Assembly: GCF_003003355.1 (NCBI RefSeq)
Contig: NZ_PVTQ01000025.1
Location: forward strand, 1 to 40,378
Direction of reading: 5' to 3'
From: Donghicola tyrosinivorans
GTDB lineage: Bacteria; Pseudomonadota; Alphaproteobacteria; Rhodobacterales; Rhodobacteraceae
Length of the DNA: 40,378 nt
Part shown: positions 11,668 through 39,503 of the stretch, in pieces
Numbering within the stretch: the stretch's first letter is position 1
Layout: every line of letters starts with the position of its first letter
Made by a program: the position numbers and the translations under genes
Notes under the pieces: model-generated
What the model saw: the letters and a program-made list of their open reading frames with translations, nothing else
Databases searched by the model: none
Told to the model about the DNA's origin: nothing

Positions 11668-13151
11668 GCGGCATCCTCCGACAGCAGCGACATGTAGCTT
11701 GCCGTGGATGTTGTCCCGACCTCGGCGCGCGGCAGGTAAGGGTAGATATCAAGGTCGAGCTTGGGCGGTCTCTTCTCGACCTGGCAGAGCACGAGATGCT
11801 TTACTGCGTCAAAGCCCACAGCACCAAGGCGCAAGGCCTGTTTGATGGCCGCGTGCAGGTCGTCGATGTCGAATGTCTCCAGCAGGCGCAGAACCTGGAC
11901 ATATTCCCGGCGTCCAGCCTTGAGCATCCGCGCCTCCATCAGGCGGCGTAGGGTCGCGAACTCCGGTGGCAGGTCCCATTCTGCCAAGGGTGCCGCCTGA
12001 TCCAGGGCATTGATCTTGCGCTCGATGAGCGGAAGGTAGTGGACCGGGTCGAAGACCATGTCCTCGCGATCGTAGCAGCGCGGATGGCGAGCGATAACTT
12101 CACCTCCACAGCCGATCACGACGTTGTCGACATACCCGCGGATCCACACGTCGCGATGGCCGTATGCCACGGGCACCGAGTAATCGTTGGTCTTGTAGCG
12201 CACCAAGGCCTGGGAACTGACCCGCCCGGTAGCCTGATCACAGGCTTCAAACGGCGCCGCCGGCATGTCGATCATCGCGGCCAGATCTCGCGCGAGGCGG
12301 TCTCCTATGGTCTCCGAATGCCCCCGCAGGACATCCGCCCGTCGCCTGCGGCACTGCTCTTCCAGGGAGGCGTTGAACGCCTCCCAACTCGGGAATCGCG
12401 GGACAGGCACCATAAAGTTGCGGCGGGAATAGCCGACCAGCCCTTCCACGTTGCCTTTGTCATTGCCCTTGCCGGGGCGACCGTAGCGATCGCGAAACAG
12501 GTAATGCGACAGGAACCCGCTGAAGAGCGTGGCACGCTGACGTGTGCCGTCAGATAGGATCTTTGCGACCAGACAGCGGTCGTTGTCGTAGAGAACCGAT
12601 ACCGGCACCCTGCCGAAAAAGGCGAAGGCGTGGACGTGGCCGTCGACCCAGGCTTCCGCCGTCGCCGCCGGATATGCACGCACGTAGCAGGCGTCGCTGT
12701 GCGGCAAATCCATGCAGAAGAAATGCGCCTTCTGTTCCACGCCGTCTATGATGACCACCGCCTCACCGAAGTCAGCTTGCGCATGACCGGGTGGATGCGC
12801 CAAAGGCACGAACATCTCGCGGACACGCCGCTCGCGCTCGCGAATATAATCCTTCACGATCGTGTAGCCGCCGGTGAACCCATGCTCGTCGCGAAGCCGC
12901 TCAAAAACGCGCTTCGCCGTGTGGCGCTGCTTGCGATGGACCTCGCGGTCCCCCTCAAGCCAGTTGTCGATGATCTCGGTGAAGCCATCCAGCTTGGGAC
13001 GCTTCACAGGCGCTGTGCGGCGGTATCCAGGCGGCGTCGAGAACGCCATCATCTTGGCTACAGTGTCGCGCGAGACGTTGAAATGACGCGCAGCTTCGCG
13101 CTGGCTCATGCCCTCGGCACAGGCCAGCCTAACCTTCCGATACAAGTCCAC
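11664..13151 (-). CDS. istA: IS21-family transposase IstA
   Basis: 495 aa from a GTG at 13151. N-terminal HTH (GMSQREAARHFNVSRDTVAKM), then an RNase H-fold DDE core: QADFGEAVVIIDG, VLYDNDRC and DKGNVEGLVGYSRR give the D, D and E residues. The C-terminal part is beta-rich. Intact and coupled to istB; the element may be active. Confidence 0.95.
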   Translation of the reverse strand: MDLYRKVRLACAEGMSQREAARHFNVSRDTVAKMMAFSTPPGYRRTAPVKRPKLDGFTEIIDNWLEGDREVHRKQRHTAKRVFERLRDEHGFTGGYTIVKDYIRERERRVREMFVPLAHPPGHAQADFGEAVVIIDGVEQKAHFFCMDLPHSDACYVRAYPAATAEAWVDGHVHAFAFFGRVPVSVLYDNDRCLVAKILSDGTRQRATLFSGFLSHYLFRDRYGRPGKGNDKGNVEGLVGYSRRNFMVPVPRFPSWEAFNASLEEQCRRRRADVLRGHSETIGDRLARDLAAMIDMPAAPFEACDQATGRVSSQALVRYKTNDYSVPVAYGHRDVWIRGYVDNVVIGCGGEVIARHPRCYDREDMVFDPVHYLPLIERKINALDQAAPLAEWDLPPEFATLRRLMEARMLKAGRREYVQVLRLLETFDIDDLHAAIKQALRLGAVGFDAVKHLVLCQVEKRPPKLDLDIYPYLPRAEVGTTSTASYMSLLSEDAA

Positions 13152-27038: not shown

Positions 27039-27847
27039 GGGATTGCCAACTTGTTTTTACCTGTTTGAGAGAGGCGAGACCTCTGCCTGTCAGGCGGTCA
27101 TTTCGGCAGCATAACCTCTCCAGAGGTCGAAAGCATCGGACCTTGCGTGGCGGTATGAGACGGCGGAGAGTTGATAGCGTCGTGGGCGAAAAACGATGTT
27201 GATCTGATCATGGGCAGCCAGAAATCTTTGTGCCTGCCGGGGAGATTTAAACCGCCCCATCAACTTCTCGCGTTTCCGTGTTGGTCTGTGTGATGCTTCG
27301 ATCCGGTTGTTCAAGCCCTTGTGTGCGCGATGATCTGCGCCCGGTGCGAGGTCCCGGATCGGCCTGAAATAACTGCGCAACTTGTCCGTGATGATGACAC
27401 GGGGTTCACCGAACCGGTCGATCAGCCTTGCCAGAAAACGTCTTGCAGCATTGGCGTTGCGCTGTGGCTGAACGAGAATATCAAGGACGTCGCCGTTCGC
27501 GTCGACCGCCCGCCAGAGCCAGTATTTTCTGCCGTTGATTGGGATGACGACCTCATCCAAGTGCCATTTGTCGCCCGCGGCCGGTCTGTCGCGCCTGATG
27601 CAATCGGCAAAGTGACGGCCAAAGCGGTTCACCCATTTTCGGATCGTTTCCCGGCTGACCATCACACCCCGATCGGCGAGAAGATCCTCGACATCCGCCG
27701 TGCTGAGCGCGAAGCGATGATAGACCCAGACGGCATATGCAACGATTTCACGAGGGAAACGGTAGCCTTTCAGGCGCGGCATGGAGGATGGTGTATTCAT
27801 ACCCAACGCCTAACCAATCACCGCTCCGCAAACAATTTGGCAATCCC
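27039..27847 (-). mobile_element. IS6-family insertion sequence, intact (809 bp)
   Basis: Terminal repeats GGGATTGCCAACTTGTTT (left) and, read inward, GGGATTGCCAAATTGTTT (right). Encodes one intact transposase. The 8-bp flanks differ, so no target duplication; it may be the result of replicon fusion or rearrangement. It separates the low-GC regulatory part from the GC-rich stress island. Confidence 0.85.
27090..27806 (-). CDS. IS6-family transposase
   Basis: 238 aa, full length. N-terminal HTH region (FALSTADVEDLLADRGVMVS), DDE core with WHLDEVVIPINGRKYWLWRA, VIITDKLRSY and LNNRIEASHRPTRKRE. C-terminus ends in the usual NIVFRPRRYQLSA segment. Distinct from the dead IS6 copy at 22.4 kb. ATG 27806; the MPRLKGYRFP start 8 codons downstream is a second option. 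Confidence 0.95.
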   Translation of the reverse strand: MGMNTPSSMPRLKGYRFPREIVAYAVWVYHRFALSTADVEDLLADRGVMVSRETIRKWVNRFGRHFADCIRRDRPAAGDKWHLDEVVIPINGRKYWLWRAVDANGDVLDILVQPQRNANAARRFLARLIDRFGEPRVIITDKLRSYFRPIRDLAPGADHRAHKGLNNRIEASHRPTRKREKLMGRFKSPRQAQRFLAAHDQINIVFRPRRYQLSAVSYRHARSDAFDLWRGYAAEMTA

Positions 27848-30428: not shown

Positions 30429-30665
30429 TCACGAGCGTCGAACCGAGTTTCCGCCAGCGATGATCGCGTTGATCAATTCGGCGACGGCCCGGTGGCTTTC
30501 TATTTCGAGTTCGGTGCCAACGGCATTCTCATGGGTCGCCGCGGCGTCGCGAAGAACCTCCACAATCTCGTGCTCCGGCAGCAATCCGAGATTGTTCATG
30601 GCAAGCAGGAGCGCTTCGCAGATTGACAGGGCGGCCTGACCTGCATGTTCGCTCGCGGTGGACAT
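30429..30665 (-). CDS. conserved small helical protein (78 aa)
   Basis: MSTASEHAGQAALSICEALL, then LGLLPEHEIVEVLRDAAATH; all-helical, no membrane segment. The ATG at 30665 faces the divergent Crp/Fnr gene, so the two may share a control region (30666-30815). Such small proteins occur in plasmid stress clusters, but I cannot assign a function. Confidence 0.65.
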   Translation of the reverse strand: MSTASEHAGQAALSICEALLLAMNNLGLLPEHEIVEVLRDAAATHENAVGTELEIESHRAVAELINAIIAGGNSVRRS

Positions 30666-30815
30666 CCGGGTTTCCTTCCTTGATATCGTGAACCCTCGGG
30701 AAGGTGAGGTTCAAATACATCCGTACTTCTCGCAGGAAGTGCTCTATGCTGGACTGATCCAGAGCAGTGTCCGAGTCGATTTCCGCTCTTGGGTCGCGAC
30801 ACGCCAGGAGCCTCC

Positions 30816-31550
30816 ATGGCATCAGCCGAACACAGCCCTTTGACCCGCAAGCTCTCGGCCTTCGTCGCTCTGTCTGAGGTCGAACTGGCCGTGCTTGAGC
30901 GACTGCACCAGCGTCGCCGCTCCTTCGTCGCGGGACGTGATTTGGTGCATCAGGGCCAATCGGCTCAGGCCGCGTACATTCTGTCGTCGGGTTGGGTCTG
31001 CTCCTACAAGCTGCAGGCCGACGGAACCCGGCAGATCGTGGATTTCCAGGTGCCAGGGGATTTTCTGGGATTGCGCAGCGTCCTGTTGCGCACTTCAGAC
31101 CACAGCTTCGAACCCATCGTCGACATCGAGGCAGCCGAAGTGCTGGCGAGCGACCTTCTCGATGCCTTCGCACGGACGCCGCGCCTCGCGACCGCCATCC
31201 TCTGGGCGGCGTCGCGTGACGAGGCGATGGTCGTTGAACATCTCGTCGGGATCGGCCGGCGTGATGCGGAGGCCCGCATGGCGCATTTCCTGCTGGAGCT
31301 GGGATCGAGTCTTGCGCTGGTCGGAATAGGCAGCAAGGAAGGATTCGACTGCCCTCTGACGCAGTACCACCTCGCCGATACGCTGGGGTTGAGTGCGGTC
31401 CATGTGAACCGCGTTTTGCGCCGGCTTCGCGAGAATGGACTGGTGACCTTCCGGGACGGCCATGTCACGTTTCACGACTATGGCGGGCTGGTGGACCTTG
31501 CCGAGTTCGACCCGGCATATCTGGACCAGACCGGGCCGCTCCTGAAATAA
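30816..31550 (+). CDS. Crp/Fnr-family transcription regulator
   Basis: 244 aa from ATG 30816 (MASAEHSPL), with AGGAG 5 nt upstream. N-terminal cyclic-nucleotide-binding-type barrel (AAYILSSGWVCSYKLQADGT, VDFQVPGDFLGL), long dimer helix, and C-terminal HTH: HLADTLGLSAVHVNRVLRRLRENGLV. The N-terminal cysteines of FNR are absent, so it is not a classic oxygen sensor. The recognition helix has V-x-x-N-R where FNR has E-x-x-S-R, predicting another half-site. It is the natural candidate to bind the CTnAC-N4-GTnAG dyads found at four nearby promoters. Confidence 0.93.
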   Translation: MASAEHSPLTRKLSAFVALSEVELAVLERLHQRRRSFVAGRDLVHQGQSAQAAYILSSGWVCSYKLQADGTRQIVDFQVPGDFLGLRSVLLRTSDHSFEPIVDIEAAEVLASDLLDAFARTPRLATAILWAASRDEAMVVEHLVGIGRRDAEARMAHFLLELGSSLALVGIGSKEGFDCPLTQYHLADTLGLSAVHVNRVLRRLRENGLVTFRDGHVTFHDYGGLVDLAEFDPAYLDQTGPLLK

Positions 31551-31608: not shown

Positions 31609-31797
31609 TCACGCGAGGGCGTGGGTCGCCGCATCGAGTTCCTTGTTGGCCTCGGCGTCATTCTTCGCCGTATGCGCCTTCTCGGCTGCCTGGAAGTGCT
31701 TCAGCGCCGCATCCTTCTTCGGGCCAGAGGGCGCTTTGTCCCAGGCGGCTTTCACGGTTTTCATCTTCTCGGCAGTCTTGTTCTGTTCGGGAGTCAT
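31609..31797 (-). CDS. small charged protein (62 aa)
   Basis: MTPEQNKTAEKMKTVKAAWD, then PKKDAALKHFQAAEKAH; lysine- and alanine-rich helices. GGAAAGGA lies upstream of the ATG at 31797. Convergent with the Crp/Fnr gene. Its promoter carries dyad site 1, about 163 bp upstream. Function unknown. Confidence 0.75.
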   Translation of the reverse strand: MTPEQNKTAEKMKTVKAAWDKAPSGPKKDAALKHFQAAEKAHTAKNDAEANKELDAATHALA

Positions 31798-31931
31798 TGG
31801 AATTGTCCTTTCCTGGACGTTCCGAGAATAAGAAGCGCGCCGACATGCCGACCCTTTGGGGATCGGCACGCCCACACGCTTCTCGGGTACTCGGAAAAAG
31901 ATGCGCCACCAAATATTCGGCGGGCACGGCT

Positions 31932-31973
31932 TACCTAGCCAATGTCAGCCCTCGCCGCACTGACGCAGGTTAG
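31932..31973 (-). promoter_or_regulatory. class II-type promoter with dyad site 1
   Basis: Dyad CTAAC-CTGC-GTCAG read on the minus strand (31973-31960), centre 31966.5; TAGGTA at 31937-31932 starts 29.5 bp downstream. This places the dyad at -41.5. Serves the 62-aa gene. Confidence 0.65.
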
Positions 31974-32011
31974 TCCCGGCGTCTGTGGCGGGTCGATTGC
32001 CTTGTCGGCTT

Positions 32012-32425
32012 TCAAGTCACCGCCGTTTGCTGATGGGAAATCCTTAGCCATTTGTCGTCATCGCCAAGGTACGTTGAAGCGCAGAGCGCTTTGTAGATCG
32101 GCACGTCGGTTTTTTCAGCCGAGACCCGATAAGTGAGGATCGCGATATCGCCGCATCGCGTCACGCGCCGTTCGGCCATGACGACGGAACGCCAGCCGGT
32201 TCTCTGCCGAAGTTGGGTCCAGATTTGGTCACCCTGGAGGATGCCGGGCGGATAGGGGAAAATCATCACCGCGTTGGTCGCTGTCGTCGCCTGCGCACTA
32301 TCGGTGCCGCTGGTCCAGAACTGTTCCTCCATGTCCCAGAGTATGCCCTGTTCGTGTGGAGAAAGCCTACCGGACTTGTGTGCCGCATGGGCCAGTCTCC
32401 TCGCGGTCGCGGTTGATACGGTCAT
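32012..32425 (-). CDS. NTF2-like (DUF4440-type) small protein
   Basis: 137 aa. Pattern LSPHEQGILWDMEEQFWTSG, then MIFPYPPGILQGDQIWTQL and RRVTRCGDIAILTYRVSA, typical of the cone-shaped SnoaL/DUF4440 fold. Usually a small-ligand binding or enzyme fold; substrate unknown. Its ATG overlaps the stop of the upstream gene (ATGA), so co-translated with the 141-aa membrane protein. Confidence 0.75.
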   Translation of the reverse strand: MTVSTATARRLAHAAHKSGRLSPHEQGILWDMEEQFWTSGTDSAQATTATNAVMIFPYPPGILQGDQIWTQLRQRTGWRSVVMAERRVTRCGDIAILTYRVSAEKTDVPIYKALCASTYLGDDDKWLRISHQQTAVT

Positions 32426-32847
32426 TCGCCTGACCCCGACCCGTCAACCATGAACATCTGAAATAGAAGGAAGACAATCGCGAGCACCGCCCAGATCGCT
32501 CCGCTTGTCCCCGGACGGTCGCCAGTCACCGTCGAGGCAGCTCGCTTCAGGCTACCTGACGTCTGGCCTTCGGGAAGCAACTGACTCAGGTCTCGTGCGA
32601 CCTTGCCGTGATCGCTGGCGAGCGCGGGTACGTCCCGAAAACAAGTAAGCAGCGTTCCCAAGCGTGCGCGCGCATCGTCGCGCCCCAGTTTGACCAGTTC
32701 AGCGGTTTCTTTCCATGGATCGAGGCCAAGCCGCGCGAGCGTGGAGAGCACAGTCACGGCAAAGCCGTTCCGGTCCTCGCCAACAGACGCATAGAGAAAT
32801 CGCTCGAACTCGGGTGGGTGCGGGTTGAGTACATTGGAGCCGGTCAT
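32422..32847 (-). CDS. C-terminally anchored membrane protein, unknown
   Basis: 141 aa from ATG 32847 (MTGSNVLNPHPPEFERFLYA), because AAAGGA is 6 nt upstream; two further ATGs at 32853 and 32862 are less well placed. Soluble helical domain (VTVLSTLARLGLDPWKETAE, DARARLGTLL) and one C-terminal membrane helix (AIWAVLAIVFLLFQMFMV). First gene of a two-gene operon whose promoter has dyad site 2. Resembles unnamed proteins of plasmid stress clusters. Confidence 0.75.
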   Translation of the reverse strand: MTGSNVLNPHPPEFERFLYASVGEDRNGFAVTVLSTLARLGLDPWKETAELVKLGRDDARARLGTLLTCFRDVPALASDHGKVARDLSQLLPEGQTSGSLKRAASTVTGDRPGTSGAIWAVLAIVFLLFQMFMVDGSGSGE

Positions 32848-32897
32848 AGCCATTCCTTTCAAGGGTTGCAGGAATGCAGATCACTCCTGTTTCCCAC

Positions 32898-32939
32898 AGA
32901 CTACGCGCTGGTCGGTCCCCGCGCCCTTACACAGGTCAG
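32898..32939 (-). promoter_or_regulatory. class II-type promoter with dyad site 2
   Basis: Minus-strand dyad CTGAC-CTGT-GTAAG (32939-32926), centre 32932.5; TAGTCT (32903-32898) starts 29.5 bp downstream. Predicted start near 32891, 44 nt before the 141-aa gene. Confidence 0.6.
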
Positions 32940-32987
32940 TGCGGGCGACGGCCCTCAGGGAGGTCGCAACCGGTTCGGTGCCCGGGA

Positions 32988-33029
32988 CTAACATGCGTCA
33001 GCGCCAGCCGAACGATCCCGAAGTACAAG
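32988..33029 (+). promoter_or_regulatory. class II-type promoter with dyad site 3
   Basis: CTAAC-ATGC-GTCAG (32988-33001), centre 32994.5; TACAAG begins at 33024, 29.5 bp downstream. Predicted start near 33036, 83 nt before the first gene of the plus-strand operon. Confidence 0.65.
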
Positions 33030-33118
33030 ACACTAATCGTTCGACTGGTCCGTCCCGCACTTCAAGGGGCCGTCAACAGTGATGAGCGACGGATCTGCCA
33101 ACATCGAGGAGACCAGAG

Positions 33119-33433
33119 ATGAACATGCGGTCGACCAGATCGACGGTGACGTTTTCCAATGCCTTCACCTTGCCGGGATACCCAGACGGTTTGCCCGCGG
33201 GCGACTATGAGGTTCTCGTCGAAGAAGAGCTTCTCCAGGGGCTGAGCTTCGAGGCCTACAGACGAACGGCGACCTACCTGACGGTGCGCGGAAGGAGCGG
33301 TCATGCTGGACATACAGAGTTACGGGCGATTTCTGAAAGCGACCTGAAAGAGGCGCTAGGCCGGGATGCGGCCATGACCGAAACGAACAATTACAGCGAG
33401 GCGGCGCTTTCTCCGCAGGAGGACTTGAAATGA
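33119..33433 (+). CDS. LPAGxYE-type small protein, member 1
   Basis: 104 aa, ATG 33119 after GAGGAG. Core VTFSNAFTLPGYPDGLPAGD then YEVLVEEELLQGLSF is shared with the N-terminal half of the 177-aa protein at 38970. The motif is known to me from unnamed proteins of rhizobial and roseobacter plasmids. Overlaps the next gene by 4 bp. First gene after promoter site 3. Function unknown. Confidence 0.75.
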   Translation: MNMRSTRSTVTFSNAFTLPGYPDGLPAGDYEVLVEEELLQGLSFEAYRRTATYLTVRGRSGHAGHTELRAISESDLKEALGRDAAMTETNNYSEAALSPQEDLK

Positions 33434-33774
33434 ATACTCCCGAATGGCTCAAACCCGGCATCTATGGTGCTGTGATCGGTGCTGTCTTTGTCGGCGTCGT
33501 CGGATTTTCATGGGGTGGCTGGGTGACCGGCGGCACCTCGAATGACCGCGCGGTGGCGATGTCTCGTAACGATGTCGTCGCCTCAATGGTACCGGTCTGC
33601 CTCGCCATGGCGCGGTCAGACCCCGCTCGGGCGGACAAGCTTGCAACGATCCGGGCAGCCTCGACCTACCAGAAGCGCGACGCTCTCATGACAGCCGGCT
33701 GGGCGACGATGCCAGGAACCGATGCCCCAGACCGAGACATTGCGCAAGCCTGCCTGAAGGAACTGGACCTCTGA
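33430..33774 (+). CDS. membrane-anchored protein with Cys pair, unknown
   Basis: 114 aa, ATG overlaps the previous stop. One N-terminal membrane helix (GIYGAVIGAVFVGVVGFSWG), then a periplasmic-facing domain with VPVCLAMARSD and IAQACLKELDL, two cysteines that could pair. The WGGWVTGGTS segment is distinctive. No named family recognised. Lies between LPAGxYE member 1 and hflK. Confidence 0.75.
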   Translation: MNTPEWLKPGIYGAVIGAVFVGVVGFSWGGWVTGGTSNDRAVAMSRNDVVASMVPVCLAMARSDPARADKLATIRAASTYQKRDALMTAGWATMPGTDAPDRDIAQACLKELDL

Positions 33775-33881
33775 GGTCATGCTGTTCAGAGCCGACGATG
33801 TGATGGCGCAAAACGGGTCGCACCGTCAAACGCGCGAGCCACGCGTCGCCCCGAGTGCCAAAACCGAGATAGGAGCTTGCG

Positions 33882-34949
33882 ATGCCTTCTGATGGCAATG
33901 GACCGGAAGATCGCGGACCTTGGAAAAACAAGCAGACCCGCGTTCCCCCTGAGGTTGACGCAATTCTCAGGCGGGGCCGGGATCGGCTGCACGGCATCCT
34001 GCCGGGCGGTCTGCCACCGGTGAAGCGTCTTGCAATCGGGGCCGCCATTGCGCTTGCGGCGCTTGGGGCGGGGTCCTCATATTACACGGTGCCGAGCGAC
34101 TCCGTTGCGATTGTCCAACGGTTCGGGAAGTACGCGGCCGAGGTCCCTCCGGGGCTGCACTTCAAGATCCCGTTCGGGATCGACGTGACCACGTTGGTCC
34201 CGGTCAAGCGCCAGCTGAAACAAGAGTTCGGGTTCACGACTCCGGGTGCCTCCGATCCCTATCAGAGCCCGGCGGACGGTCGCCGCGAGACCGAGATGGT
34301 GACTGGCGATCTAAACGCCGCGCTCGTGGAGTGGGTGGTGCAGTACCGGATTTCCGAACCTCGGAAATTTCTGTTCGAGGTGCGTGAGCCGAGCGCGACT
34401 CTGCGTTACGTCTCGGAGTCCGTCATGCGCGAAGTCGTGGGAGACCGCACAGTCGACGAGGTGATCACCGTCGGGCGCCAGGAAATCGAAAGCGAAGCCC
34501 TGCTGAAGATGCAGGCGCTCGCGACCAAATACGCGATGGGCATCAGCATCGATCAGGTACAGCTGAAGAACATCAATCCGCCCCAGCCGGTTCAAGCCTC
34601 GTTCAACGAGGTCAACCAGGCACAACAAGAGAAGGAGCGGATCATCAACGAGGCCCGCCGTGAATACAACCGCGTCATACCTTTAGCCGAAGGCGAAAAG
34701 GACCAACGGATCCGCGAAGCCGATGGTTATCGCTTGAGGAGGATCAATGAAGCCGAGGGCGATGCGGCACGCTTCACGGCGCTCCTGACGGAATACCGTC
34801 TGGCGCCCGAAGTTACCCGGCGCCGGATCTACATCGAAACCCTTCAGGATGTTCTGCCGGGAATTGGTTCCAAGATCATTGTCGACGGGTCCACGGCAAG
34901 CATCCTCCCGCTTTTGAACCTTGATCGACAGACAGGAGAGCAACGATGA
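33882..34949 (+). CDS. hflK: HflK-like SPFH/band 7 protein
   Basis: 355 aa, ATG 33882 after TAGGAG. Cytosolic N-terminus, membrane segment (RLAIGAAIALAALGAG), then SPFH domain: SVAIVQRFGKYAAEVPPGLH, YRISEPRKFLFEVREP, YVSESVMREVVGDRTVDEVI, and helical tail with READGYRLRRINEAEGDAAR. HflK pairs with HflC to hold the FtsH protease in a membrane microdomain. FtsH is not in the window, so this copy may modulate the host protease or serve stress tolerance. Overlaps hflC by 4 bp. Confidence 0.9.
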   Translation: MPSDGNGPEDRGPWKNKQTRVPPEVDAILRRGRDRLHGILPGGLPPVKRLAIGAAIALAALGAGSSYYTVPSDSVAIVQRFGKYAAEVPPGLHFKIPFGIDVTTLVPVKRQLKQEFGFTTPGASDPYQSPADGRRETEMVTGDLNAALVEWVVQYRISEPRKFLFEVREPSATLRYVSESVMREVVGDRTVDEVITVGRQEIESEALLKMQALATKYAMGISIDQVQLKNINPPQPVQASFNEVNQAQQEKERIINEARREYNRVIPLAEGEKDQRIREADGYRLRRINEAEGDAARFTALLTEYRLAPEVTRRRIYIETLQDVLPGIGSKIIVDGSTASILPLLNLDRQTGEQR

Positions 34950-36034
34950 AGACCCTTTCGCTCATTGCCTCGGGAATCGCGGTTGCCGGGGTCGTCGCAG
35001 CGTCATCCGCCGTCTACACGGTCGGCGAGGTCGAACAGGCCATCATCACCCAGTTCGGCAAGCCGGTCGGCGCGCCGATCACCGAGGCGGGTCTCAAGTT
35101 GAAACTCCCCTTTGTTCAGGAGGTTAACCGGATCGACAGCCGGGTTCTGGAGTGGGACGGCTCGCCATCGGACATGCCCACCAAAGACAAGCTCTATATC
35201 TCGGTCGATCTCTTCGCGCGCTGGAAGATCACCGATCCTCTGCAGTACTTTCTGCGCCTGCGCGACGAACGCAGCGCCCAGTCGCGCCTCGATGATATCC
35301 TCGGCAGCGAGACGCGGAACGCGGTCGCCAAGCACGAACTTATCGAGATCGTGCGTACGACCAGGGGCCGGACACCCCTTCGGGACACGCTTCTGACTGA
35401 TCAGGAGCTTGCGCAGGACATTGGCGCACTGGTTCCCATCACGAAGGGGCGGGCGCTGGTCGAGCAGCAGATCTTCGAGGCGGCGGCGGAAAAGGTGCGC
35501 GTTTTCGGGATCGAGCTTCTCGATATCCGCTTCAAACGCATAAACTACAATGAGAGCGTGCGACCCAAGATCTATGACCGCATGATCTCGGAGCGCCGGC
35601 AGATCGCCGAACGCTTCCTGTCTGAAGGCAACGGTGAAGCGGCCCGTATTCAAGGCAATAGGGTGCGGGATCTGAACAAGATCCAGTCCGAAGCCTATCG
35701 CGCCGTCGAGGAAATCCGCGGTGCCGCCGATGCCGCAGCAGCAGCAATCTATGCGGGTGCTTACAATCTCGATGCCGTTTCGGTCGACTTCTACGATTTC
35801 ACCCGAACCATGCAGGCCTACGGCGACATGATCTCGGACGACACGACGCTTGTCCTGACGACGGACAGCGATCTGTTCCAGTTCCTGCGCGGCATGCAGG
35901 GCGAGGCAGACCCACTCCGCGATCCGGGTAGCGACCCGGGTGACGGTGGCGTGGCGTCAATCGGCAGGCCCCGACCAGCGCAAGACCCCGCGACGCCAAT
36001 CTTGACACAGACGGAGGTCGAAGCAGGCCGCTAG
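34946..36034 (+). CDS. hflC: HflC-like SPFH/band 7 protein
   Basis: 362 aa. Signal-anchor (IASGIAVAGVVAASSAVYTV), then SPFH domain: QAIITQFGKPVGAPITEAGL, INYNESVRPKIYDRMISERR, and the helical RIQGNRVRDLNKIQSEAYR stretch typical of HflC. The C-terminal 50 residues are a low-complexity tail absent from most HflC proteins. ATGA overlap with hflK. Together they probably make a ring in the inner membrane. Confidence 0.9.
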   Translation: MKTLSLIASGIAVAGVVAASSAVYTVGEVEQAIITQFGKPVGAPITEAGLKLKLPFVQEVNRIDSRVLEWDGSPSDMPTKDKLYISVDLFARWKITDPLQYFLRLRDERSAQSRLDDILGSETRNAVAKHELIEIVRTTRGRTPLRDTLLTDQELAQDIGALVPITKGRALVEQQIFEAAAEKVRVFGIELLDIRFKRINYNESVRPKIYDRMISERRQIAERFLSEGNGEAARIQGNRVRDLNKIQSEAYRAVEEIRGAADAAAAAIYAGAYNLDAVSVDFYDFTRTMQAYGDMISDDTTLVLTTDSDLFQFLRGMQGEADPLRDPGSDPGDGGVASIGRPRPAQDPATPILTQTEVEAGR

Positions 36035-36162
36035 GTTCATGGTGGAAGGTTTCAAGCATAAATAGAGGGTATCAAGCGGGAAGCACGTCAATGACACCTG
36101 GACCACCGAGGTCGGTTTCTTTCCGCTTCTGAGCAAGACACACCCACTAAATTTCCGTGCCC

Positions 36163-36204
36163 CTAACCTGCGTCAGCGCACGATTTGCGCTTGGCTGGTA
36201 GGTG
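36163..36204 (+). promoter_or_regulatory. class II-type promoter with dyad site 4
   Basis: CTAAC-CTGC-GTCAG (36163-36176), centre 36169.5; TAGGTG begins at 36199, 29.5 bp downstream, like site 1. Predicted start near 36211, 94 nt before the next gene. Confidence 0.65.
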
Positions 36205-36304: not shown

Positions 36305-36784
36305 ATGACATCAGTCAAACATCTAACCAGGACAGCCGCAGAGACCACCGATCTCGAACGGCGTGTGCTCGCCCATGAAAAGGTGCTTCAAGCCCTGATC
36401 GCCTTCATGGCCCGCACCGAGCCGCGATTTATTGATCATCTGAGAGAACGGTTCGTCGAGCCGATGCGCATGGCGCGGCATGAACATGACTACCGCGAAG
36501 CCGATGATTATGCGGAAGAATTCATTCGCGCCGTGATGCTCCTCGGAGAGGAGCGCGCGCCCATCGCAAAGGAGTCGAAATTGACCGACAAGAAACCCGT
36601 GTCGGCGAAAGGCAGAGGAGAAAAGGGGGCTTCCATGAACTGGCCACCGCACCGCGGTGGAGTTCAGGTGCGCGAAAGGAACGGCATCTGGGAGGTGGAG
36701 GTCGATGGCAAGTTCCGCGGCGACTACCACCAGAAGGAACATACCCTTGCGGCTGCGGCTTTAATAAAGTCGTCCCAAAAATGA
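36305..36784 (+). CDS. two-part protein with C-terminal DUF2188-like motif
   Basis: 159 aa, ATG 36305, GAGGAGG upstream. N-terminal helical part (VLAHEKVLQALIAFMARTEP, EADDYAEEFIRAVMLL), a lysine-rich linker, then a short domain VQVRERNGIWEVEVDGKFRG with YHQKEHTLAAAA, which resembles DUF2188 (small domain seen in stress or plasmid proteins). First gene after site 4; stop overlaps the next ATG. Confidence 0.65.
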   Translation: MTSVKHLTRTAAETTDLERRVLAHEKVLQALIAFMARTEPRFIDHLRERFVEPMRMARHEHDYREADDYAEEFIRAVMLLGEERAPIAKESKLTDKKPVSAKGRGEKGASMNWPPHRGGVQVRERNGIWEVEVDGKFRGDYHQKEHTLAAAALIKSSQK

Positions 36785-38969: not shown

Positions 38970-39503
38970 ATGGAAGAACTGACGAGCAAGACCGTTGCGG
39001 TTTTTTCCCGCCCGTTCACCCTTCCAGGCTTTGACGAGACGCTCCCGGCGGGAGAGTACGAGATCGAAACGGAATTGGTTTCACCCCCGGATCAAAAGAA
39101 TCCCGGAGCCTGGAAAGCCTCCGTCCTAGTGAAACTTCATTCCCGGGCATCGCATCCTGGACTTGCGAGGACGCTCACCGTTTCCCTTGCCGATCTGGAC
39201 CAAGCACGCGCCAGGGACAAGCTGACGGGCAGGGAGTTGTCCGACTTCTTCCTTGAAGAAATGCTGGCTGATCCGATGGTGCAGCTCGTGATGAAGGCCG
39301 ACGGGGTCTCCGAGGCGCACCTGCGACATCTCTATTCCCGGTCTGGGACGTCCGATCCGACCCTGGCTGCGCCGCCTTCGAAGACGCCCGCCCGAGGAGC
39401 GCGGGACGAAGAGTCGATCCGGACCGCCGAAAACGAAGGCATGCCTACGCGACCGGACTCGCCGCCGCCCTTGCGCACCCGTCTGGCTGAGGGGAAAACG
39501 TGA
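38970..39503 (+). CDS. LPAGxYE-type protein, member 2
   Basis: 177 aa, ATG 38970 after AAGGGAAAGGA. N-terminal half parallels member 1: VAVFSRPFTLPGFDETLPAG then EYEIETELV. The C-terminal half adds LSDFFLEEMLADPMVQLVMK and SEAHLRHLYSRSG and ends with AENEGMPTRPD, shared with the Cys-repeat protein. Overlaps a short frame downstream (TGATG). Function unknown. Confidence 0.75.
   Translation: MEELTSKTVAVFSRPFTLPGFDETLPAGEYEIETELVSPPDQKNPGAWKASVLVKLHSRASHPGLARTLTVSLADLDQARARDKLTGRELSDFFLEEMLADPMVQLVMKADGVSEAHLRHLYSRSGTSDPTLAAPPSKTPARGARDEESIRTAENEGMPTRPDSPPPLRTRLAEGKT

Follow-up and report, generated by a model that had tools for sequence, protein, structure and literature searches.

Four operons of a gene island in Donghicola tyrosinivorans are each preceded by a 14-base-pair (bp) inverted repeat, CTnAC-N4-GTnAG, at a fixed distance from a proposed -10 box. 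We consider it likely that a dimer of the Crp/Fnr-family regulator encoded in the same island reads these dyads, activates the promoters behind them in class II fashion, and represses its own gene. A preliminary description of this DNA had already named the local Crp/Fnr protein as the reader, and that assignment is supported by conservation of the dyads and their -10 boxes, by co-occurrence of the dyads with the regulator gene, by a dyad at the regulator gene itself, and by a comparison of arcD promoters in other genomes. The window analysed here is the whole 40,378-nucleotide (nt) contig NZ_PVTQ01000025.1 of assembly GCF_003003355.1.

Dyad position, spacing and conservation

All four dyads were found again at the positions where they had first been described (Table 1). 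The term "exact dyad" is used below for CTnAC-N4-GTnAG, a motif derived from the four sites themselves. The reported spacing was confirmed, in that all four sites have a 22-bp gap between dyad and hexamer and a distance of 29.5 bp from the dyad centre to the first base of the TA. With the start inferred from the -10 box, each dyad would be centred at -41.5, as expected of a class II promoter. The operons are also separate, as had been proposed: the gene for a 62-amino-acid (aa) protein; the 141-aa and 137-aa genes; the 104-aa, 114-aa, HflK-like and HflC-like genes; and the 159-aa gene together with genes downstream of it. Binding of the regulator dimer at sites 1 to 4 would thus be predicted to drive these four gene groups from starts near 31925, 32891, 33036 and 36211.

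The window contains five exact dyads where 0.29 are expected, and none of 100 shuffles reached five; the fifth match, at 12762, lies far from the island cluster. In the whole genome (4.68 Mb) there are 33 distinct exact sites, four of which fall inside 4.2 kb of the window, and the probability of this clustering (4 in 4.2 kb versus 29 elsewhere) is ∼2e-8, a post hoc value since these very sites had supplied the motif. Across the whole genome the exact dyad is not enriched, its 33 sites being fewer than the 46 for the reversed control, and we therefore claim no genome-wide regulon. A scan of the window allowing one mismatch gave no excess (9 found, 9.2 expected), so exact sites alone were used. 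Just one of the 28 exact sites outside the window with fetched flanks has a TA at 29.5 bp in either direction, and within this genome the strict motif seems to work only in the island.

A collection scan yielded 480 relatives, and the best 80 were kept as a close set (87–96% regulator identity). A middle set of 20 loci and a most divergent set of 46 (51–75% regulator identity) were also compared. The motif is conserved in front of homologous genes, as the preliminary description required: among the 80 close loci, 74 contain one or more exact dyads, 67 contain two or more, and 46 contain three or more. When the intergenic regions are aligned (68, 68 and 85 rows, including those that lack an exact dyad), top-base frequencies are 0.964, 0.965 and 0.955 in the dyad columns versus 0.828, 0.845 and 0.794 in the others. 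Both dyads between the 141-aa and 104-aa genes are kept in 54 of 67 loci and one of them in the other 13, and the dyad before the 62-aa gene is kept in 53/67. Genes that have been relocated within the island are still preceded by dyads (the 62-aa gene in locus L068, the 159-aa gene in L105 and the 104-aa gene in L046), and in L246 a dyad is found on a contig other than that of the regulator.

The spacing is conserved as well. Among distinct promoters, the TA lies most often at 29.5 bp in five families, namely those of the 104-aa, 141-aa and 159-aa genes (counts in Table 1), arcD (4/5) and the regulator gene (22/116). These profiles retain as misses 22 rows (104-aa) and 5 rows (141-aa) in which the neighbouring site is read the wrong way. 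Relatives of the 62-aa gene promoter have the TA at 30.5 bp in 43 of 57 distinct sequences and at 29.5 bp in six.

The regulator and its own dyad

The regulator belongs to the Crp/Fnr superfamily, with a cNMP-binding-like domain at the N-terminus (PF00027, 51.2 bits) and a Crp-type helix-turn-helix at the C-terminus (PF13545, 58.1 bits), both scoring past the cut-off, and its nearest relatives of solved structure are FNR and FixK2. It is not a CRP orthologue, since it scores 31.3 bits on the NCBIfam CRP model, which has a cut-off of 266. CRP shares with it the two-domain architecture and the use of class II promoters, whereas the half-site differs, that of CRP being TGTGA, and the regulator's sequence match to CRP is weaker than that to FNR. 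The cysteines of an FNR-type [4Fe-4S] cluster are absent from the 244-aa protein, whose first cysteine is Cys62; the only cysteines common in the family are Cys62 (136/153 loci) and Cys179 (153/153). The invariance of Cys179 and its closeness to the DNA-reading helix lead us to guess that the signal could be redox.

The preliminary description overlooked a fifth site, which lies before the regulator gene. Within 150 bp of that gene, a broad form of the dyad occurs in 133 of 153 loci, and CTGAT-N4-A[GT]CAG in 120 of 153; the outer CT..AG is common to these dyads and to the CTnAC targets. A perfect palindrome that overlaps the site, CTGGA-N4-TCCAG, was discounted, because divergent loci conserve the columns of CTGAT-N4-A[GT]CAG instead. 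A TA, usually as TATGCT, stands 15.5 bp before the dyad centre in 91 of the 111 distinct upstream sequences. With this conserved hexamer directly ahead of it, the dyad would cover the start site of the regulator gene, predicted near 30757, and the bound regulator would probably repress its own transcription by negative feedback. Where regulator identity is below 83%, a TA follows the own-gene dyad at 29.5 bp (17/50) or 28.5 bp (8/50), and positive control at the regulator's own gene is possible in these older, divergent branches.

The arrangement at the regulator gene, which suggests repression there, could also be taken to favour a different view of the whole island, in which the regulator mainly represses, or acts from a class I or looping arrangement, and transcription starts elsewhere. 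We regard this as rather unlikely, since in four target families a TA at 29.5 or 30.5 bp is conserved together with the dyad, which is class II geometry.

Association with the regulator gene and comparison of the half-site with the FNR box

A close homologue of the regulator (E ≤ 1e-60) is present in 87 of 394 genomes from the bacterial family, close to one per genus, and in the three genomes of the same genus no homologue above 2e-13 was found; the island thus has the scattered distribution that a mobile unit would show. The motif CTAACMTGYGTCAG was found in 42 of the 87 genomes with a close homologue and in 4 of the 307 without, an association much of which is explained by linkage within the island; the reversed control was found in 10 of 394. 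Of the four genomes with the motif and no close homologue, G309 carries the island right where a contig ends, and the matches in G283, G285 and G322, in which the TA is not at 29.5 bp, look like chance.

A partly independent test of the link between dyad and regulator comes from arcD, a DcuC-family transporter gene found beside genes for arginine deiminase, ornithine carbamoyltransferase and an amino-acid kinase, and occurring near some divergent regulator genes. It is present in 44 genomes, and the upstream DNA was compared in 40 (G120, G236, G277 and G323 were omitted). Exact CT..AG dyads precede arcD in 7 of 16 genomes with the regulator and in none of 24 without (Fisher 6e-4, relatedness ignored). 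The FnrL/Dnr-like TT..AA dyads show the opposite tendency, at 2/16 and 9/24, which is not significant (P 0.15), and mixed forms occur in three genomes with the regulator and in one without. At L165:9458-14096, an arginine-deiminase operon with the DcuC-family transporter adjoins a divergent regulator gene.

The half-site had been described as neither that of FNR nor that of Crp. It does depart from the FNR box TTGAT-N4-ATCAA, as the outer bases are C..G in all four target sites, but it is not remote from it: Rhodobacteraceae FnrL/Dnr sites given in passages of PMC5398030 and PMC2908626 include TTAAC-N4-GTCAA and TTGAC-N4-GTCAA, one outermost base away. CTnA[C/T] accordingly looks like TTnA[C/T], the half-site of FNR and Dnr, with C in place of the outermost T. 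The main DNA contacts of FNR, according to PMC4505428, are Glu209, Ser212 and Arg213. These align with Val195, Asn198 and Arg199 of the regulator, so that the arginine is kept and two residues of the FNR recognition helix are changed. The presence of Asn in place of Ser coincides suggestively with the outer-base change, and the two substitutions (Glu209 to Val195, Ser212 to Asn198) may be its cause.

This nearness raises the question of whether host FnrL or Dnr reads the dyads, with CT..AG as a form of the FNR box that they merely tolerate. The difference is confined to the outermost base, and passages of PMC2908626 on R. sphaeroides FnrL sites from chromatin immunoprecipitation include some of the form CTGAT-N4-ATCAA, with C on one side. 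None of the FnrL sites in those passages has C..G at both outer positions, however, CT..AG before arcD is restricted to regulator-bearing genomes, and the regulator's own gene carries a related dyad in most loci; we judge a role of FnrL or Dnr as the reader to be unlikely. It is highly improbable that the dyads were kept merely through recent spread of the island, with no regulatory role, for although many loci are 80–95% identical in DNA around the sites, conservation is higher in the dyad columns than around them, and unrelated genes, arcD among them, are preceded by a TA at the same position.

Several observations weigh against the explanation preferred here. The co-occurrence lies mostly in one linked island and is in part shared descent, and the tests ignore relatedness. 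Six of the 80 close loci have no exact dyad, although some loci are short or lack the genes, and the exact CTnAC dyad is present in only 12/20 middle and 13/46 divergent loci. An enumeration of all dyads leaves CTnAC outside the top 12 in the close set (80 loci) and the top 15 in the middle set (20 loci); in the divergent set CTnAT-N4-ATnAG ranks first (20/46 loci), which counts in favour of the explanation, with the caution that the enumeration is confounded by shared descent and composition. The regulator's own half-sites, CTGAT and AGCAG, are unlike the CTnAC targets, the CTGAT-type pattern taken alone is not significant in the window (4 found, 1.58 expected), and close relatives have a TA at 29.5 bp before the regulator gene in just 3 of 75 cases. 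The proposed -10 boxes are weak matches. At arcD, two regulator-bearing genomes have TT..AA dyads, and the copy used as the query (L165/G016), which adjoins a regulator gene, is without a CT..AG dyad.

The regulator system shares with FNR, FnrL and Dnr the 14-bp dyad with its N4 spacer, the -41.5 position, the inner TnA[C/T] and the recognition-helix arginine. It differs from them in its outer C rather than T, in Val and Asn for Glu209 and Ser212, in the absence of an N-terminal cysteine cluster, and in being carried on an island. According to passages of PMC9104804, FixK2 of Bradyrhizobium diazoefficiens has no FNR Fe-S cluster, a key cysteine near its DNA-binding motif, and negative autoregulation. 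The island regulator is similar in lacking FNR's cluster, in having one cysteine near the DNA-binding motif and in its proposed negative autoregulation, whereas the operator differs. Cys179 was considered as the exact equivalent of FixK2 C183 and rejected on residue spacing, as it lies three residues before the C183 position when measured to the recognition helix. The architecture as a whole is ordinary; the outer-base shift and its carriage on a mobile island are unusual. Among the open-access papers listed for the search terms used, none described this island or its motif.

Island genes and implications

Table 1. The regulator gene, dyads, proposed -10 hexamers and target genes of the island, with positions in the window.
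Feature	Positions	Strand	Remarks
-10-like hexamer TATGCT, just upstream of the regulator's dyad	30745..30750	+	TA at fixed distance, 91/111
Regulator's own dyad CTGATCCAGAGCAG, CTGAT-CCAG-AGCAG; proposed autoregulatory operator	30754..30767	+	broad pattern, 133/153 loci
Crp/Fnr-family regulator, 244 aa; proposed dyad reader	30816..31550	+	Pfam cNMP_binding 1.3e-13, HTH_Crp_2 8.4e-16
62-aa protein gene	31609..31797	-	no Pfam or NCBIfam match
Proposed -10 for site 1, TAGGTA	31932..31937	-	29.5 bp from dyad centre; mostly 30.5 in relatives
Site 1, CTAAC-CTGC-GTCAG, before 62-aa gene	31960..31973	-	exact motif match
137-aa protein gene	32012..32425	-	weak DUF4440 match below cut-off
141-aa protein gene	32422..32847	-	no Pfam or NCBIfam match
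Proposed -10 for site 2, TAGTCT	32898..32903	-	TA at 29.5 in 54/68 distinct promoters
Site 2, CTGAC-CTGT-GTAAG, before 141-aa/137-aa genes	32926..32939	-	exact motif match
Site 3, CTAAC-ATGC-GTCAG, before 104-aa/114-aa/HflK-like/HflC-like genes	32988..33001	+	exact motif match
Proposed -10 for site 3, TACAAG	33024..33029	+	TA at 29.5 in 46/76 distinct rows
104-aa protein gene	33119..33433	+	no Pfam match
114-aa protein gene	33430..33774	+	no match past cut-off
HflK-like SPFH protein	33882..34949	+	NCBIfam hflK 1e-78
HflC-like SPFH protein	34946..36034	+	NCBIfam hflC 6.6e-68
Site 4, CTAAC-CTGC-GTCAG, before 159-aa gene	36163..36176	+	exact motif match
Proposed -10 for site 4, TAGGTG	36199..36204	+	TA at 29.5 in 10/13 distinct promoters
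159-aa protein gene	36305..36784	+	no Pfam match

The idea of a self-contained regulon of SPFH and small unknown proteins beside the chaperone genes is supported, with amendments. The chaperone neighbour groESL, on the opposite side of the regulator gene from the targets, carries neither kind of exact dyad in its upstream region, and an arc operon seems to belong to the regulon in other genomes. The HflK-like gene was found in just 10 of 80 named loci and is thus an accessory of its operon. The 104-aa protein and the product of 38970-39503 (+) look paralogous (∼30% identity between the families by tblastn).

The leader of the 62-aa gene contains a long hairpin at 31819-31896 (-), with -74.5 kcal/mol over 134 nt and a z of -8.1. 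RNAalifold on 32 sequences gave 10 pairs, nine with two-sided changes in at least one sequence, and there was no Rfam match at E 0.1; the hairpin is possibly a leader element. Divergent from the regulator gene is a 78-aa gene at 30429-30665 (-) that has no Pfam match, and in 18 of 63 loci its relatives stand next to divergent regulator genes. An IS240-type transposase gene at 27090-27806 (-) flanks the chaperonin genes on the left and is a possible island border. The island DNA of L068, titled Oceanobacillus, is typical of Rhodobacteraceae and its regulator is 92% identical, so the title or the assembly may be wrong.

As to how this regulon arose, we are evenly divided on a scenario in which a mobile island shifted its outer half-site base from T to C through changes at FNR contact residues, gaining a class II regulon insulated from FnrL and Dnr beside it, and in which older branches of this regulator took over the arginine-deiminase operon through an identical T-to-C change. 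If correct, this would be a clear natural example of a change of specificity within the Crp/Fnr superfamily, in which some genomes place one and the same operon, that of arcD, under T-type dyads while others place it under C-type dyads. Control of a widespread, uncharacterised island would become directly testable, and the dyad would serve as a practical marker in the search for more regulon members.

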